From Vicingus serpentipes (GTDB lineage: Bacteria > Bacteroidota > Bacteroidia > Flavobacteriales_E > Vicingaceae), in NCBI GenBank assembly GCA_024103385.1, contig JAGFIT010000072.1, positions 1-64,000 on the forward strand: DNA of 64,000 nt, written 5' to 3'. This document shows, piece after piece, positions 1 to 15,133 of this stretch; position 1 is the first letter of the stretch, and the number at the start of each line of letters is the position of its first letter. The position numbers and the translations under genes were made by a program. Under the pieces are notes generated by a model. It saw only the letters and a program-made list of their open reading frames with translations. It ran no database searches and was not told where the DNA came from.

Positions 1-311
1 TAAGAGAATCTTTTAATGAAACTTGAAGGTATTCTCTTTGATCGACTTGTAAATAAGTATATATTCCAGCATAACCATTTCCTGTTTTAGCTTCTTTATA
101 ACCAAAAAAATTAGTTGGAACACCATAACTACCTCCATTACAGCTATTATAAAGGTCTGGCGTATTTGAATTAGCAGTATTCCAGTAATTTGCTCTCGAG
201 ATTTGTCCTTGATTATCTGGGCATAATGATATATCTTCAAAACTACCATTATTAACTATGTTTTGAGTAAAGCAAAAAGCAAAAAGCAAAAAGTACAAGC
301 TTCTTTTTCAT
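1..311 (-). pseudogene. Secreted modular protein, 5' part, currently out of frame (phase OFF or pseudogene)
   Basis: The gene starts at the ATG at 311 and runs off the left edge. The reading frame from that ATG gives a signal-peptide start (MKKKLVLFAFCFLL) but stops at 252-254 after 19 residues. Another frame is then open to the window edge. It reads QNIVNNGSFEDISLCPDN and onward, and matches the mature part of the neighbour at 379-1347 (QNLVPNWSFENFFVCPNG), including the shared GYxEAKTG and REY motifs. The frame break lies in a 7-bp tandem repeat (269-294) in the signal-peptide codons. Two or five full repeats would join signal peptide and body; the three present do not. I read it as a secreted, probably T9SS-exported paralog switched off by repeat number. 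A fixed pseudogene or an assembly error is possible. The C-terminus is outside the window. Confidence 0.75.
269..294 (-). repeat. Heptanucleotide tandem repeat in signal-peptide codons (3 units plus partial)
   Basis: On the coding (minus) strand the tract reads ACTTTTT, GCTTTTT, GCTTTTT and a partial GCTTT, directly after the MKKKLV codons. The unit is 7 bp, so each gain or loss shifts the reading frame. The same kind of tract occurs in the neighbouring paralog (1296-1330) with five units and an intact frame. Confidence 0.9.
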
Positions 312-325
312 ATCCTATAAAATTA

Positions 326-359
326 CTAAACTCCTGACAATCATTTACCAGGAGTTTAG
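326..359 (-). terminator. Hairpin downstream of the 379-1347 gene
   Basis: The arms CTAAACTCCTG and CAGGAGTTTAG pair over 11 bp around a 12-nt loop, followed on the minus strand by a T-rich stretch. A near copy at 1362-1395 has a compensatory C-to-T and G-to-A pair change in the stem, which supports a functional hairpin. It also lies just upstream of the next gene (start 311). Confidence 0.65.
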
Positions 360-378
360 CTTATACGTATTGAATGGT

Positions 379-1347
379 TTATTGTTTTATCATCAATAAC
401 TTTTCGGTGTGTACTACTTGCTCATTTACAATTACCTTGTAAAGGTATATTCCGTTTTCTTGATTGTTTAAATTGATATGCTCTCGTTTTAAGCCAGGAT
501 TCAGTGGCTGAGAAAAAACCTTTTTCCCAATTAAATCATACAACTCTAACCCTCCTTTTTCGCTTTTCTTTAACTCATGTTCTACAAAAAACTGCCCCAT
601 GCTAGGATTAGGGTAAACTTTAATTCCATGCTTATTGTTATTTTCTGTTATACCTACAATGCTATCTATTAAAATAACGGAAACGTCATCTACATAGTAA
701 TATGCCCATGTACTTGATCCTCCAGTAACATTTACTTTTGAAGTAGTACTATCATTGTTAAAATTACCAATGGTCATAAATTGTTCCCCACCGTTAGCCA
801 CCAATGTGTCTTGTATTTTTATCCAATTTAAGGTGTCATTTATTATCCCATTCTTGTTAATTATTTGTGGGGAATGAGGCAATACATAATAATCATTTGT
901 CAACACACTATCAACGGAAAAATGTGCACCAATGGCATCTATGGCAAAACCTGAGACCTCACCTAAATTCACATAAAAACTGACCAAATACCTATAATTC
1001 GGTTTTAGTGAGTCTGTTAATTTAATTTCCATATACTCCCGAGCATTAAATGTCAAACTCATGAATAAAATAATTCCTCCATATGCCACACCAGTTTTTG
1101 CTTCTTGATAACCCCGTTGGTTTGCAGGAACTCCGACAATCGAAGTCGCACATTGGTTAAAATAATCCGTAGTAGTAGACATGTTTTGCTCAGGTTGAAA
1201 CCAAGGAACTGCTTTAGTAATCTGACCACCACCATTAGGGCAAACAAAGAAATTTTCAAAGCTCCAATTGGGGACAAGGTTTTGCGAAACACTACAAAAA
1301 GCAAAAAGTAAAAAGTAAAAAGTAAAAAGTACAACCTTCTTTTTCAT
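379..1347 (-). CDS. Secreted T9SS-cargo protein with NLVPN-type module (phase-variable signal peptide, ON)
   Basis: A 322-residue secreted protein of unknown function. I chose the ATG at 1347 (MKKKVVLF) because it begins a signal peptide; the longer upstream frame adds 11 residues with no signal character. After the signal peptide, about residues 23-235 form one module, from NLVPNWSFEN with CPNGGGQI to a closing YYYVDDVSV. The same module occurs at about residues 742-945 of the adjacent 1958-residue protein. The last 75 or so residues (VYPNPSMGQFFVE to HTEKLLMIKQ) are a type A T9SS sorting domain, so surface attachment or release is expected. The signal-peptide hydrophobic core is coded by five 7-bp repeats (1296-1330), so its expression may vary by slippage. 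The sorting-domain end is almost identical in DNA to that of the upstream gene, which suggests recent duplication or gene conversion. Confidence 0.85.
   Translation of the reverse strand: MKKKVVLFTFYFLLFAFCSVSQNLVPNWSFENFFVCPNGGGQITKAVPWFQPEQNMSTTTDYFNQCATSIVGVPANQRGYQEAKTGVAYGGIILFMSLTFNAREYMEIKLTDSLKPNYRYLVSFYVNLGEVSGFAIDAIGAHFSVDSVLTNDYYVLPHSPQIINKNGIINDTLNWIKIQDTLVANGGEQFMTIGNFNNDSTTSKVNVTGGSSTWAYYYVDDVSVILIDSIVGITENNNKHGIKVYPNPSMGQFFVEHELKKSEKGGLELYDLIGKKVFSQPLNPGLKREHINLNNQENGIYLYKVIVNEQVVHTEKLLMIKQ
1296..1330 (-). repeat. Heptanucleotide tandem repeat in signal-peptide codons (5 units)
   Basis: Thirty-five bases make five 7-bp units on the coding strand: four ACTTTTT and one GCTTTTT. 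They encode LFTFYFLLFAF, the hydrophobic core of the signal peptide. Five units keep the frame; four or six would break it. The unit encodes hydrophobic residues in all three frames, so the core survives changes of three units. Confidence 0.9.
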
Positions 1348-1414: not shown

Positions 1415-4400
1415 TTATTGTTTTATCATCAATAATTTTTCGGTGTGTACTACTTGCTCATTTACAATTACCTTGTAAAGGTATATTCCATTTTCATAAT
1501 CAACCAAATTAAGCTTCAACATATTATTGGCGCCAGAAGTTAATGGAAAAGATTCTTGTAATTTTCCGGTTACATCTACTATTTGCAACACTCCTTTTTC
1601 TGCAACACCCAAACTGTACTCCAAGAACATGTTGCCATTGGTTGGGTTAGGGTAAAGTGTAAACTTCGCTTCTTTACTAAATGTTGAGTTGCCCAACTCT
1701 ATTTCCTCCTGCACCTTCTCTCCTTTTTTACTGCTTTCACTGCTGCCCTGGCTGCTTGCTGTTCCACAGTTGCTATCATCGTATTCATAGGTACTATCAC
1801 TCAACAATTGGAGCATGGTTCTGGCAGCAAATACCGCTTTACCCCCCAATAACGGACATTGAGCTGCAATTCCCTCTACCTCATTAAATTGTGCGGTGGT
1901 CAACTCATTACCGGCTGCCCACAAGCAATAAATGGCATTGCAGCTTTGTTGGTTGCTTTCCATCAGGTTATTGGGTACAATGCTGGCATTCAATCCATGC
2001 GCCTGAGCATAATCACTGTTGCACAACAATTGACCAACCGTTACCAACTGCCCTATAGCTGTAGTTTTTACACTATCGAAAAAATGTTGAAGTATAGCGG
2101 TATCTTCCGGAGTACCCATATTCATAATAGAGTCGTTTGCCATCATAGCACTATACGCAAACTCTTTGGCAAACTGCATGTTTTCTTCCTGTAATGTGGG
2201 AAATACCACCTGGTTATTCACAAAGAGCAACAACGCCTGTTGCAAACAATTGGAAGGGCTGGAGCATTGACCTGCGGCATTGCAATTAAAAGGAGCTCCT
2301 GTTACAGGTGTTTGTAATAAAACTGCATCCGTAGGATCTAATGTAGGATTAAAATTTACAGCGGGTACTGATCCACCGGCATCACCACGAATAAACCAGT
2401 CTGGGTCTATCCCTAGCGAATTACTGACAATATCAAACTGAGCAGTGCCAAACCATTGGTTATCCGAAGGGTTGGTACTACTTCCTTGGGTGCCTATGGT
2501 AGCGGTTTCTAAAAAGAAACCTCGCTGGCATTGGTCTAGCACATTGCATCGGATGGAGCTATTGATGTTTACTCCCCTCATAATAATACCACTTCCAAAC
2601 TCCGTAATGGTGTTGTTGTTCATTAAGGTATTGCCACTTAGGGTAACATCTACTCCTCGCACACGGTCAGTAGCAGCGGCAGTTGCTGCTATAACAGGCC
2701 ATATATTGTTTTCAACAATTTCAGAGTTAACGCAATTCTCTACCCTTATTCCATAAGAAGGAAAGGCCGAAATACCGATATCCTTTATATTGGTAATGGT
2801 ATTGCCTTCTACCAATAACAGGTCGTCTGCTATAGTGGTTGCCCATATTCCTGTTCTAATGTTATCAATGGTGTTGTTGGTAATGCGAATTTCATCTCCC
2901 GAACTTAAGTTAGAGTAGAATATAACCTCTTGTACTGCAATACCTAAAGTGAGTGCCACGGTGGGGTTACCAATTAAATTGTTGTTATCAATCTCTATGT
3001 TTCCAGTACGGTTATCAAAACATAGAATAGCATTACTGAAATTGTTTAGGGTATTATCGTTAACAGTAATTGGTTGCTCAATGCAATTGGTAATAAATAT
3101 TCCATTTCTTACATCAATAAAACTGTTGTTTAAAATGTTTACCGTAGTGCGATCTTCCACACGCACTCCTTCGGTACAGTTATTAAACGTATTGGTAGCT
3201 AGCGCTGTGCCATCTCCAACATCAATGGTATGTGCATTGTTTACATCACCACTAGACCATATTGCAATTCCCGGCAATATACAAGGTGTTGGAGGGGTGG
3301 GGCAAGCGCTGTTAGGTGGGGTAATGATGTTCGTAAAATTATTGTTGAATACACTTAAATTGCTTCTAACATTTGTGATTCCAAAATCCATGTTATCAAA
3401 GCTATTGCTTCCAAATGCAGGATCGCCCATTTGTATATTTGCTACATCAGTAATTTCCACCCCTACACTGGTACGTTGGTTACTTCGAGGCACTTTTAAC
3501 GTATTTCCCGGAGAAGTAGCACTTGCATTACAAGAAAGCATGGAGTTAACCACCGTTGCAGTGTGAGCAGCAGTAAAAGCGTTCACCACAATGTGTTTGA
3601 AGTTTTTGTTTAAAATAGCTCCATCTAACTGATAAACACCTCCATTTGTGGATACGATTGCTGTTTCTGCATCCTCGACACTGGAATTGCCATCAATGAT
3701 TAACGTACTCGTATTATCCGGAATAAAAATACCGTTCCAGAGTTCGGTACAGGAAAAAAGATGAGAATTGTTGGTAATGGTTAATGTTACTCCACTTTGT
3801 ATATTGATTTGTGCATCCTTACGCATGATAAAATTAGTGGCATTTAAGGTGTAAGGAACATCTACATTCAGTATGCTGTTTGCATCAAAGGCAATAGTAG
3901 CACCTACGATAGTATTTGCAGGTAATGTGCCAGCAGTAATTAAATCAGAAAGTTGATGTGTTCCAGAAATTGTTTGACTTTGTGTGCCACAAACGGCAAC
4001 ACAACTATTATCAATAGTTACTGTTACATCATCCGTATTCACACAACCGTTTGCATCTGTTCCTGTTACGGTATAAGTAGTAGTTGCTGTAGGACTTGCA
4101 TTTGGAGTAGCTATGTTTGGGTCGTCCAATCCGGTAGCTGGAGTCCAGCTAAAAGATGTTCCACCACCTGCCATTAATGTTGTACTCTCTCCAGCACATA
4201 TTATTACATCATCTCCAGCGTTGACTGGAGGTAATGGGTTTACCGTAACGGTGAAGGTTGCCGAAGGTGGAGGACAGGCACAGTCCAATATAGCTTCTAC
4301 AGTATATGTAGTAGTTGTTGTTGGAGAAACAGTAATGGAAGAAGTTGTTGCTCCATTACTCCATAAATAAGAAGCTGCCCCCGTAGCACTCAACGTTACG

Positions 4401-7291
4401 CTTTCGCCTTCACAAATCGTGGTTTGAGTAGCAGTAATTTGAGGTGCTTGAGGAATAATACTAATGTCATCTACGTAATAATAAGCACCATTTAGAAAAG
4501 CACTAGGAAAACCAGTTGGTGTAATCATTGATGATGCCGCATCCAAAAAATTACCAATGGTAATAAACTTTTCTCCTCCCCCAATAAAATTGGATTCCCG
4601 AAGTTGTATCCATACAGGACCTGTATTAGTAATCACACTAGAAGAAGCTACTTGTGGAGTAAAAGGTAATGGTGTAGGTCCGGAAATAGGGTTATTTACA
4701 GGAGTAGTTGATAGGTATATACCTGGCCCTTTTGTAGCAAATTTACTATTTTCTGCAAGGCTTACATACATAATTACATCATAAACCTGACCAACTTCTA
4801 GTTCACAAAGAAGTTCAGATTGAACAAATTCTACTTGCCCCGTTGTATGCATTCCAACATATCCTGAACCTCCTCGAGCGAGTTGTGAACCAAAAAGATT
4901 ATTAGGAGTACCAACCAACGAACTATTACAATTAAAATAATCAGGAGTCCCTAAAGTTGGTCTGTACCAAGGTAGTATTTTATTGATTTGATCGAGCCCA
5001 CCACCACCAGATATATCTGTAGGACATGAAGAATAATCTTCAAAACTTGGATTAGGGACTAGATTACAATTGGCTTGAAGAGCAGGTAAAGGGAACCCCC
5101 CATTACTTGGAGGTAATATTAATAAGGAATTACTAGGTTCACTGATAGATACACCATTCATAGCAACTACAGTAACAACATCTCCTCCTTCCAATAAGTT
5201 AGCAGTAAAGTTATTATCTCCACTATTTTGGGCAGAAATACCATTGATAAAGAACTCATAGTTGTCAAAATTACTAGGAGTAGCAAAAAACTTATTTACC
5301 ATTCCTTCCGGATCAGGGTTTAATGTTACAGTAATTGTTCCTGGCACACAACTTGAAAACCCTGAAGTATTACCATTAACATCGGTAACTGTAGCAGTAA
5401 TGTCCCCTGCCATTGATAGCGATAATGACCAGTTTCCATTTTGATCTGCAACTGTACTTCCAATCAATATTTTACCTTCACAATAAGAGTAAGAATCATC
5501 CATAAATAATTCTACCACTCCATTTGAAACACTTTCTCCAGTTATTTGGCTAGATGTTACTGATGTAATTAATACTGATTGAATACCGTTATTAGCTCCT
5601 GTTACTAATCTAATTCCTCCATTACCTGTTGTCTGTGAGTTACCAAAGAAACTATTTTTCCTTACCTCTACTTCATAATTTGTTGCACTGCACACACAAA
5701 CACCTTCTTCTCCGTTAAATGCAATGATATTACCTTCTCCGTTGTTTGTTCCACCTATCAATATGTTATCTGTAGTACCAGCTGTTTCAACACCATATTC
5801 TCCATTACCTAACTCTTCTGTTCCATTAGTTCCTGTACCAATACTATTGCCTTGTACGATAAAAGCACCACTGGTCGCGCTAAGTTCGAGTCCATCTCCT
5901 ACATTAGCTGAAATAATATTTCCTTCTCCTGTATTTGCTCCTCCAATAGTAATGGTTCCTCCTGTGTTGTTGGCATGAATACCATCACCTCCATTGCTTT
6001 GTGCAAGTGTTCCTGTTTCGTCTGTTCCTATTAGGTTACCTGTAATCGAATAATTAGGATTAGTGAGACTAATATCTATACCATGATTGCCATTTCCTGC
6101 AATGTGGTTTTCACTAATACTCCCACTACTGGTGGAACCGTTTATTGCTATACCATTATCGGTGAAATTGATAATGGAGAGTCCTTTTATTACTACATTT
6201 TCTGCGTTTAGAATATTAATTCCTGTATTTACAGCATTGTTACCGTCCAATACAATTTTAAATGCAGCACTTCCTGTTTGTGTGCTAGCATCAATGGTAA
6301 TATCATTTTCTGTAATATCAGGCAATTGACTATTAAGTGTAATGGTATGGGGCGCATTACCATCGATACAAAAAGAAATGACATCGGCTACTCCATTACT
6401 GTTGGCTGTATTGATGGCATCACGCAAAGAACCAGCTCCATCGTTGTTGGTGTTCAATACACAAATAGTTCCTGGAAAGGCGTTAATCGTGACGGTAGCA
6501 GTATCGGAAAAAACAACGCAGCTATCAGTAACTTTTGCTCGAAAATATACACTCCCAGGGCCTAATAACGAAGCAGTAGTATAGGGTGTTGTTGTAGCAC
6601 CAACAATATCAGAAAAATTAATGCCATCAGTAGATTGTTGCCATTGAATAGTTCCTGAGTGACCATTCAGTGTTAGGGTAGTTGATTGGTTGTGTTCAAT
6701 GTTAATAGGTGCAGCTATTGCTGTTCCTGCTATTGTTGTACAACTACCGCTTACACCTGTTACTAAAATGTTATCAAAATTATGTGTTTCGGTACTACTA
6801 TTATTATTCACTTTAATGATGATTTGTAGAGAATCGATACTATCACCTATATTGATGCTAGCAGAAGTAGAGCCAAATTCCTGATTGGAAGGGTCGAACC
6901 ATGCTATTTCTGAACCACTAGCGCTAGTTTTGTAAAATGCTTTAATGAAATCGCTACCATCATCGGTGTTTTGTTCTTCGAAATTTCCAGAAATAGTAAC
7001 ATTGGTAAAGTCTTGTACGTTAATCCATTGGGATATCCATAAGACAGTACCATCGACATCTCTTCCTTCAAACTTATTACTCCTTGTTTCAAAATAATCA
7101 CCAACACCAAAATCACCTCCACTAATGTCTATTGTCCATGCCGCAGGGTTACCTCCTCCTACTATTGTGCCATCGGGATAGGTAAAATCTTCCAAGTATA
7201 AAGTATCTTGTGCATAAAGGGAAGTTGTAAAACTGAAAAGTAGAACAATGAATAACTTACAGATGAAAGAGCGATAGGTAGTAATTGACAT
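1415..7291 (-). CDS. Giant secreted beta-helix adhesin-like protein with T9SS sorting domain
   Basis: A 1958-residue modular exoprotein. Approximate order: signal peptide 1-27 (ends SLYAQ); a jelly-roll-like module opening DTLYLEDFTYPDG, to about 180, of a type also seen in the genes at 28000 and 30907; an Ig-like module to 270; the SLRDAIN motif near 287, typical of polymorphic-outer-membrane or CSLREA-type proteins; a right-handed parallel beta-helix to about 620; the NLVPNPSFED module 742-945, shared with the two genes downstream; Ig/PKD-like modules 955-1095; a second NosD-like beta-helix about 1130-1650; and a type A T9SS sorting domain from about 1880 (LYPNPTNGN). Such proteins act as adhesins or polysaccharide-binding or -degrading proteins; no catalytic motif is obvious. 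Its last 25 residues are identical to those of the 379-1347 protein. An ACGTA-AAAA-TACGT palindrome lies about 86 bp upstream. Confidence 0.85.
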   Translation of the reverse strand: MSITTYRSFICKLFIVLLFSFTTSLYAQDTLYLEDFTYPDGTIVGGGNPAAWTIDISGGDFGVGDYFETRSNKFEGRDVDGTVLWISQWINVQDFTNVTISGNFEEQNTDDGSDFIKAFYKTSASGSEIAWFDPSNQEFGSTSASINIGDSIDSLQIIIKVNNNSSTETHNFDNILVTGVSGSCTTIAGTAIAAPINIEHNQSTTLTLNGHSGTIQWQQSTDGINFSDIVGATTTPYTTASLLGPGSVYFRAKVTDSCVVFSDTATVTINAFPGTICVLNTNNDGAGSLRDAINTANSNGVADVISFCIDGNAPHTITLNSQLPDITENDITIDASTQTGSAAFKIVLDGNNAVNTGINILNAENVVIKGLSIINFTDNGIAINGSTSSGSISENHIAGNGNHGIDISLTNPNYSITGNLIGTDETGTLAQSNGGDGIHANNTGGTITIGGANTGEGNIISANVGDGLELSATSGAFIVQGNSIGTGTNGTEELGNGEYGVETAGTTDNILIGGTNNGEGNIIAFNGEEGVCVCSATNYEVEVRKNSFFGNSQTTGNGGIRLVTGANNGIQSVLITSVTSSQITGESVSNGVVELFMDDSYSYCEGKILIGSTVADQNGNWSLSLSMAGDITATVTDVNGNTSGFSSCVPGTITVTLNPDPEGMVNKFFATPSNFDNYEFFINGISAQNSGDNNFTANLLEGGDVVTVVAMNGVSISEPSNSLLILPPSNGGFPLPALQANCNLVPNPSFEDYSSCPTDISGGGGLDQINKILPWYRPTLGTPDYFNCNSSLVGTPNNLFGSQLARGGSGYVGMHTTGQVEFVQSELLCELEVGQVYDVIMYVSLAENSKFATKGPGIYLSTTPVNNPISGPTPLPFTPQVASSSVITNTGPVWIQLRESNFIGGGEKFITIGNFLDAASSMITPTGFPSAFLNGAYYYVDDISIIPQAPQITATQTTICEGESVTLSATGAASYLWSNGATTSSITVSPTTTTTYTVEAILDCACPPPSATFTVTVNPLPPVNAGDDVIICAGESTTLMAGGGTSFSWTPATGLDDPNIATPNASPTATTTYTVTGTDANGCVNTDDVTVTIDNSCVAVCGTQSQTISGTHQLSDLITAGTLPANTIVGATIAFDANSILNVDVPYTLNATNFIMRKDAQINIQSGVTLTITNNSHLFSCTELWNGIFIPDNTSTLIIDGNSSVEDAETAIVSTNGGVYQLDGAILNKNFKHIVVNAFTAAHTATVVNSMLSCNASATSPGNTLKVPRSNQRTSVGVEITDVANIQMGDPAFGSNSFDNMDFGITNVRSNLSVFNNNFTNIITPPNSACPTPPTPCILPGIAIWSSGDVNNAHTIDVGDGTALATNTFNNCTEGVRVEDRTTVNILNNSFIDVRNGIFITNCIEQPITVNDNTLNNFSNAILCFDNRTGNIEIDNNNLIGNPTVALTLGIAVQEVIFYSNLSSGDEIRITNNTIDNIRTGIWATTIADDLLLVEGNTITNIKDIGISAFPSYGIRVENCVNSEIVENNIWPVIAATAAATDRVRGVDVTLSGNTLMNNNTITEFGSGIIMRGVNINSSIRCNVLDQCQRGFFLETATIGTQGSSTNPSDNQWFGTAQFDIVSNSLGIDPDWFIRGDAGGSVPAVNFNPTLDPTDAVLLQTPVTGAPFNCNAAGQCSSPSNCLQQALLLFVNNQVVFPTLQEENMQFAKEFAYSAMMANDSIMNMGTPEDTAILQHFFDSVKTTAIGQLVTVGQLLCNSDYAQAHGLNASIVPNNLMESNQQSCNAIYCLWAAGNELTTAQFNEVEGIAAQCPLLGGKAVFAARTMLQLLSDSTYEYDDSNCGTASSQGSSESSKKGEKVQEEIELGNSTFSKEAKFTLYPNPTNGNMFLEYSLGVAEKGVLQIVDVTGKLQESFPLTSGANNMLKLNLVDYENGIYLYKVIVNEQVVHTEKLLMIKQ

Positions 7292-14754: not shown

Positions 14755-15133
14755 TCAATTCAATTAAACGTGTTAAAATTACTTTTATTTTTTCTTCGAT
14801 TTCTTTATAGGGTAAAATTTGTTTTGCAGTATAAATAAACATCATATTGAGCTCTACCTCTGTCTTTTGAAGATGGGTTTTTAATTCATGGTTATTTAAA
14901 CGATACGCCTCTCTCATTCTTCGCTTTAGCAAATTTCTATTGACCGCTAGTTTAATATTCTTTTTAGGAACAGCCACACTCATATTTATTGGAATTTGGG
15001 TAGCTAATTCTTTTTGCTTGTAAATCGCTCTAATTGGAAAAATATGGATGGTTTTCCCTTTGCTAAAAAGCAAATCGATAGCCTTTTTACTTTTTAGTTT
15101 TTCATTTTTCGATAATTTATTGCTCCTTTCCAT
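14735..15133 (-). CDS. rnpA: Ribonuclease P protein component
   Basis: A 132-residue basic protein that binds RNase P RNA and helps mature tRNA 5' ends. The signature [13 protein letters not shown] is intact, preceded by the usual [23 protein letters not shown] start and a SVAVPKK strand. The length is normal. A TACATTTG -7 box lies 10-17 bp upstream on the minus strand (15143-15150). The frequent neighbour rpmH is absent. Confidence 0.95.

Follow-up and report, generated by a model that had tools for sequence, protein, structure and literature searches.

Two heptamer arrays at the edge of a contig

The DNA analyzed here, hereafter the window, is the whole 64,000-nucleotide stretch of Vicingus serpentipes presented above. 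At its beginning lie two neighboring minus-strand genes, gene 1 and gene 2, both of which carry tandem heptamers of the form RCTTTTT straight after their MKKK codons (Table 1). Tandem Repeats Finder reports 3.6 copies at 100% match for the gene 1 array (269–293) and 5.1 copies at 96% match for the gene 2 array (1296–1331). All three full units of gene 1 have G as the spacer base before CTTTTT, whereas the impure array of gene 2 has A, A, A, and G.

From its ATG at 1347, gene 2 reads in frame as MKKKVVLFTFYFLLFAFCSVSQNLVPN and onward over 322 amino acids. Gene 1, read from its ATG at 311, gives MKKKLVLFAFCFLLYSKHS and reaches a stop at codon 20. The body frame of gene 1, which begins TQNIVNNGSFED, is open but offset by one frame from this ATG: 46 nt separate the ATG from the Gln codon, and 46 mod 3 is 1, leaving the start out of frame with the body. 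The repeat itself translates to one cyclic hydrophobic peptide whatever the frame, either LFAFCFL or LFTFYFL. The initial annotation had already placed the heptamers after MKKK in both genes, and it is borne out by the sequence and by Tandem Repeats Finder at the positions it gave. Translation likewise confirms what it had read from them: that five units keep gene 2 in frame, that three units and a partial one lead gene 1 to a TAA at codon 20, and that the unit is hydrophobic in all three frames.

Arrays with at least three units occur at these two sites only in a pattern search of the whole 3.1-Mb genome. We find 12 two-unit matches (≤1 mismatch) in the window, where 1.75 are expected; none of 100 shuffles reached 12, and this enrichment is not due to chance. 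Separately, a heptamer-like tract at 15083–15102 sits opposite the start of an RnpA-like frame; it was set aside.

Table 1. Positions of the genes, arrays, and hairpins at the start of the window.
Feature	Position	Strand	Remarks
Gene 1 body frame	2..298	-	Open as far as the end of the contig; the simplest path takes it on into C53 (L009:63-679)
Gene 1 start and signal-peptide codons	263..311	-	ATG (311) to Gln codon; start frame ends in TAA at codon 20
Gene 1 heptamer array	269..293	-	Three pure GCTTTTT-type units and a partial unit (Tandem Repeats Finder, pattern search)
Hairpin close upstream of gene 1 ATG (gene 2/gene 1 spacer)	326..359		Fold -21.2 kcal/mol
Gene 2	379..1347	-	ON state; encodes a secreted protein of 322 aa that bears a T9SS type A sorting domain
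Gene 2 heptamer array	1296..1330	-	Five in-frame CTTTTT units; spacer bases A, A, A, G
Homologous hairpin close upstream of gene 2 ATG	1362..1395		Fold -27.4 kcal/mol
Upstream neighbor of gene 2	1415..7291	-	1958 aa; member of the tandem set

A tandem set of type IX secretion cargo genes

Gene 1 and gene 2 are two of at least six paralogous type IX secretion system (T9SS) cargo genes that lie in tandem and that the assembly has split up. The genes share a single orientation and are separated by spacers tens of bases long. The 1958-aa neighbor shares the C-terminal sorting domain and carries a related domain, with 42% identity to residues 20–226 of gene 2. Scores against TIGR04183 (cut-off 23 bits) are 42.5 for gene 2, 39 for the second gene of contig C53, and 45.1 for the start of C53, where gene 1 ends if the simplest contig path is followed. 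A Pfam match to PF18962 (Por_Secre_tail) supports the sorting domain, and the tested genes thus bear the C-terminal mark of T9SS type A cargo. As judged from the sequence itself, a Sec signal peptide is in frame in gene 2 and C53 gene 2 but not in gene 1. The genome also encodes T9SS machinery: SprA_N is found in a 2450-aa frame on contig C77 (570.7 bits) and is absent from 14 controls. With the type A sorting domain and SprA both present, the assignment of these proteins to T9SS cargo in the initial annotation holds. The Pfam scan returned only Por_Secre_tail above cut-off and no homology to Opa outer-membrane beta-barrels. A structure model (mean pLDDT 75.8) shows a beta-rich fold whose PDB matches, among them sugar-binding sandwich domains of GH2 enzymes, have TM-scores of about 0.2, and we therefore claim no function from it.

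Contig C54 ends at base 1 of the window, and gene 1 runs on into either C53 (3636 bases) or C2. The ends of these three contigs have sequence in common: a 127-nt tail is identical in gene 1 and the final gene of C53, the first 127 nt are identical in C53 and C2, and there is a 62-nt overlap between C53 and C54. These ends would fit a 192-nt repeat that an assembler working at k = 127 had cut. The simplest path through them is C54(-)-C53-C2(-), on which the body of gene 1 extends over 303 codons with zero stops and ends in a T9SS sorting domain, giving a full-length protein.

Among the tandem paralogs, the sorting-domain 3' ends, the spacer hairpin, and the leader are near-identical, and the mature parts differ. 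The near-identical regions are window positions 1–440 and 1400–1550, L009 positions 1–750, and the end of L010. These near-identical ends account for the break in the assembly, and from their sequence the paralog ends and leaders look as if they had been homogenized by gene conversion.

Hairpins lie in the spacers before the start codons of gene 1 and gene 2, and another precedes the ATG of C53 gene 2 (L009, about 700–737). We find compensatory base changes among the three copies. The hairpins are strong (-21 to -27 kcal/mol), end a little before the ATG, and lack a clear T-run. They may be processing, terminator, or translation-control elements located in the spacers of the tandem set.

Unit number and the frame of gene 1

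A third paralog with a matching leader, C53 gene 2 (L009:751), is in frame with two units. From ATG to Gln it measures 42 nt, compared with 63 nt in gene 2, and the gap of 21 nt equals three units. The leaders of these paralogs (ATGAAAAAGAAGSTTGTA) and their upstream spacers are homologous, so the arrays are the variable part. Thus, within one genome, the in-frame (ON) paralogs have five and two units and the out-of-frame (OFF) gene 1 has three, in agreement with the earlier prediction that two or five units would restore the frame. These arrays share two properties with contingency loci: a tandem repeat whose unit is not divisible by 3 changes the frame in the 5' coding region, and unit number varies with the ON alleles in one mod 3 class, here among paralogs of one genome. 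The pure G-type units of gene 1, set against the A, A, A, G of gene 2, suggest concerted turnover since duplication, with the number and type of units changing by loss and copying within each array. Relatives in the genus, at one genome per species, offered only distant homologs (26 to 45% identity), and a search of viral contigs found no copies of the leader.

The explanation that we judge best, with somewhat better than even confidence, is that slippage-prone heptamers in signal-peptide cores produce slow, stochastic, gene-by-gene ON/OFF variation of T9SS cargo. The heptamers would form a slippage-prone microsatellite where tandemly duplicated cargo genes encode the hydrophobic core of their signal peptide. 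Since 7 cannot be divided evenly by 3, the body would shift frame with each unit gained or lost. The core itself would survive any such change, its cyclic hydrophobic heptapeptide being identical in all frames, and steps of three units (7 residues) would be neutral. Gene 2 (five units) and the C53 paralog (two) would presently be ON, and gene 1 (three) would be OFF, making a 19-aa abortive peptide. Differences in unit number would arise by slipped-strand mispairing, with each cargo gene changing independently, and the OFF state of gene 1 would be reversible and mean no secreted protein.

Support is good for a frameshift made by slippage; a dedicated ON/OFF switch is no more than a possibility. 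The stability of repeats is set mainly by unit number and purity (PMC3899988), and in Haemophilus influenzae, where surveys count heptamers from three units, functional heptamer arrays have 13 to 38 units (PMC2651432). Here gene 1 has three pure units and gene 2 has five impure ones. Since the arrays have three to five units and are partly impure, a low switching rate is to be expected, that is, a slow, stochastic switch for each gene rather than a fast contingency locus. The phase switch proposed by the initial annotation consequently stands in part: frame arithmetic, the hydrophobic unit, the T9SS cargo, and unit turnover all speak for it, and it is weakened by the short and partly impure arrays, by housekeeping hosts of similar arrays elsewhere, by the frequency of the motif in intergenic DNA of many phyla, and by a reversed control motif of similar frequency in the class (see below).

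The strongest alternative is that gene 1 reflects a one-way loss, a recombinant chimeric paralog or pseudogene with a single frameshift at the repeat and no selection to switch. Gene 1 is in fact a mosaic of a gene 2-type leader and a body like that of the C53-end gene, whose own signal peptide is unrelated, and this mosaic makes one-way loss a serious rival. The heptamers would then be incidental, arising by neutral slippage in the T-rich codons of a Phe/Leu-rich signal peptide. Like arrays do occur in the signal peptides of many unrelated exported proteins, housekeeping ones included; the motif is also frequent between genes across phyla, and short arrays rarely slip. However, the gene 1 body is stop-free, keeps the conserved positions of the family where they are covered, and is free of decay. 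Over the first 88 mature codons, comparison with the closest paralog gives dN 0.05 and dS 0.35, an estimate that pools both branches, and the ratio of about 0.14 argues against loss, although the purifying signal may stem from the other branch. The cleavage region of gene 1, CFTQ, seems weaker than the SVSQ, SISQ, and ATSQ of its paralogs, which speaks against the slow-switch explanation. On balance, we regard one-way loss as a real prospect that falls short of even.

Expression of gene 1 despite its frame is improbable. An in-frame TTG start is present at 298 (MYFLLFAFCFTQN), and ribosomal or transcriptional slippage on A- or T-runs could in principle bridge the frames. The product from this TTG, however, would lack a signal peptide's positively charged n-region, the frame change required is +1 (or -2) rather than the common -1, and both paralogs with a gene 1-type leader start at an in-frame ATG. 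Least credible of all is an assembly or consensus error hiding an in-frame allele: the locus does lie at a contig end broken by a repeat common to the paralogs, in a draft consensus of 95 contigs where minority alleles could be hidden, but the 25-nt array is far below the inferred k of 127, sits about 270 bases in from the contig end, and has flanks unlike those of its paralogs. Collapse of the arrays in assembly is unlikely, because arrays of 25 to 36 nt fit inside single k-mers.

Similar arrays and known phase-variable systems

We surveyed the class for similar arrays with the pattern CTTTTTRCTTTTTRCTTTTT, which is present in 22 of 396 genomes; in one large family it is present in 19 of 350. 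A reversed control pattern was present in 23 genomes of the class survey as against 22, and RCTTTTT was rejected as a special motif of the class. Searches at family and order level around G187 and G156 covered only 7 to 10 genomes and added little. Simple rules were used to place arrays as in frame, broken, or intergenic. Among 52 distinct arrays in Bacteroidia, 17 are in frame within signal peptides, three appear frame-broken (gene 1, L177, and L016), and the remainder are mostly intergenic. Seventeen of 20 signal-peptide arrays are thus in frame, where one third would be expected were the frame free (P = 3e-6), and this excess indicates that the frame is under selection. The two broken cases besides gene 1 exceed a background of 0.5% (P = 0.004), with the caveat that this background is assumed and that L016 is doubtful.

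One of these cases, L177 (G178:C11), has a four-unit GCTTTTT array after ATGAAAAAATCTTTG that puts a 443-aa secreted-looking protein out of frame. It is an apparent second OFF case, in a gene unrelated to gene 1; no useful homolog was found to confirm its start. The other, L016 / L237 (G006:C12, same genus), encodes an OstA/LptA-like protein, present in 14 of 14 genomes of the genus, whose signal peptide contains a three-unit array. In G006 the gene has no in-frame ATG, unlike most of the orthologs that could be read. Because it may instead start at GTG or TTG, we downgraded L016 from a clean OFF case to a doubtful one.

The proteins that host such arrays include PorP/SprF, GldH, PorW/SprE-like, OmpA/PorE-like, LolB1, and LptA-like proteins. 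Most are not obvious targets of phase variation and some are housekeeping proteins, which favors a neutral origin for many arrays; many of the arrays are probably neutral. The housekeeping hosts (LolB1, LptA-like, GldH, and PorP/SprF) also argue against a general adaptive switch. Signal-peptide arrays were not significantly shorter than intergenic ones (P = 0.11).

In a scan of all species, the motif was common in intergenic DNA of many phyla, and longer arrays were chiefly intergenic, in Cyanobacteria, Alteromonas, Bacteroidota, and others. At L185 / L203 (G345:C60), L168 (G416:C32), L070, L128, and L164, the RCTTTTT arrays are long and often lie away from clear genes; they reach 18 units, and some are degenerate across more than 100 nt.

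A broader reading, which we consider unlikely, is that heptamers in signal-peptide cores act throughout Bacteroidia as recurrent, frame-tolerant hot spots of frameshifting, giving low-rate stochastic ON/OFF variation of exported proteins, here meaning T9SS cargo, T9SS and gliding components, and envelope proteins. If this were true, the adjacent paralogs of the window would switch independently and create combinatorial surface variation. Even if the arrays are neutral, signal-peptide codons would be frameshift hot spots, with consequences for gene calling, since bodies would be annotated without their start.

In Bacteroidota, DNA inversion is the main route by which phase variation is known. 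Heptamer frame switching in the signal-peptide core of T9SS cargo, if real, would be a second route. Its arithmetic (a 7-nt unit, hydrophobic in every frame, with ON at each third unit) gives clear predictions for read data. Our literature search, limited in reach, found no paper joining type IX secretion, phase variation, and tandem repeats.

Related arrangements are known from other bacteria. In Helicobacter pylori genes of the oipA/hopZ type, CT repeats in the signal-sequence codons of an outer-membrane family switch ON and OFF by slippage. Unlike the present arrays, these have a dinucleotide unit, lie in other proteins, and have had their switching demonstrated across strains. Heptanucleotides are a common repeat length in bacteria, as in the intergenic repeats of cyanobacteria, Xanthomonas, and Beggiatoaceae (PMC4692102, PMC4679880). 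Most of these lie outside genes and leave reading frames untouched, whereas the arrays described here are coding and set the frame.

The Neisseria opa genes carry CTCTT pentamers within their leader-peptide codons (PMC3960869, PMC3899988). Both systems place a non-triplet repeat in the signal-peptide codons of a surface family, where unit number sets the frame and paralogs can differ. In contrast to opa, the unit is 7 nt rather than 5, the arrays have two to five units, and the proteins are unrelated T9SS cargo. Escherichia coli K1 neuO has 2 to 93 AAGACTC heptamers after its start codon (PMC3046976) and likewise combines a heptanucleotide repeat in the 5' coding region with an ON state every three units, each such step adding seven residues (PMC3046976). 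The neuO repeat forms a hydrophilic extension of a cytoplasmic enzyme, whereas the repeat here forms the signal-peptide core, with an ON class of n = 2 mod 3. By analogy, the heptamer arrays of V. serpentipes would work like those of opa and neuO while belonging to neither family.
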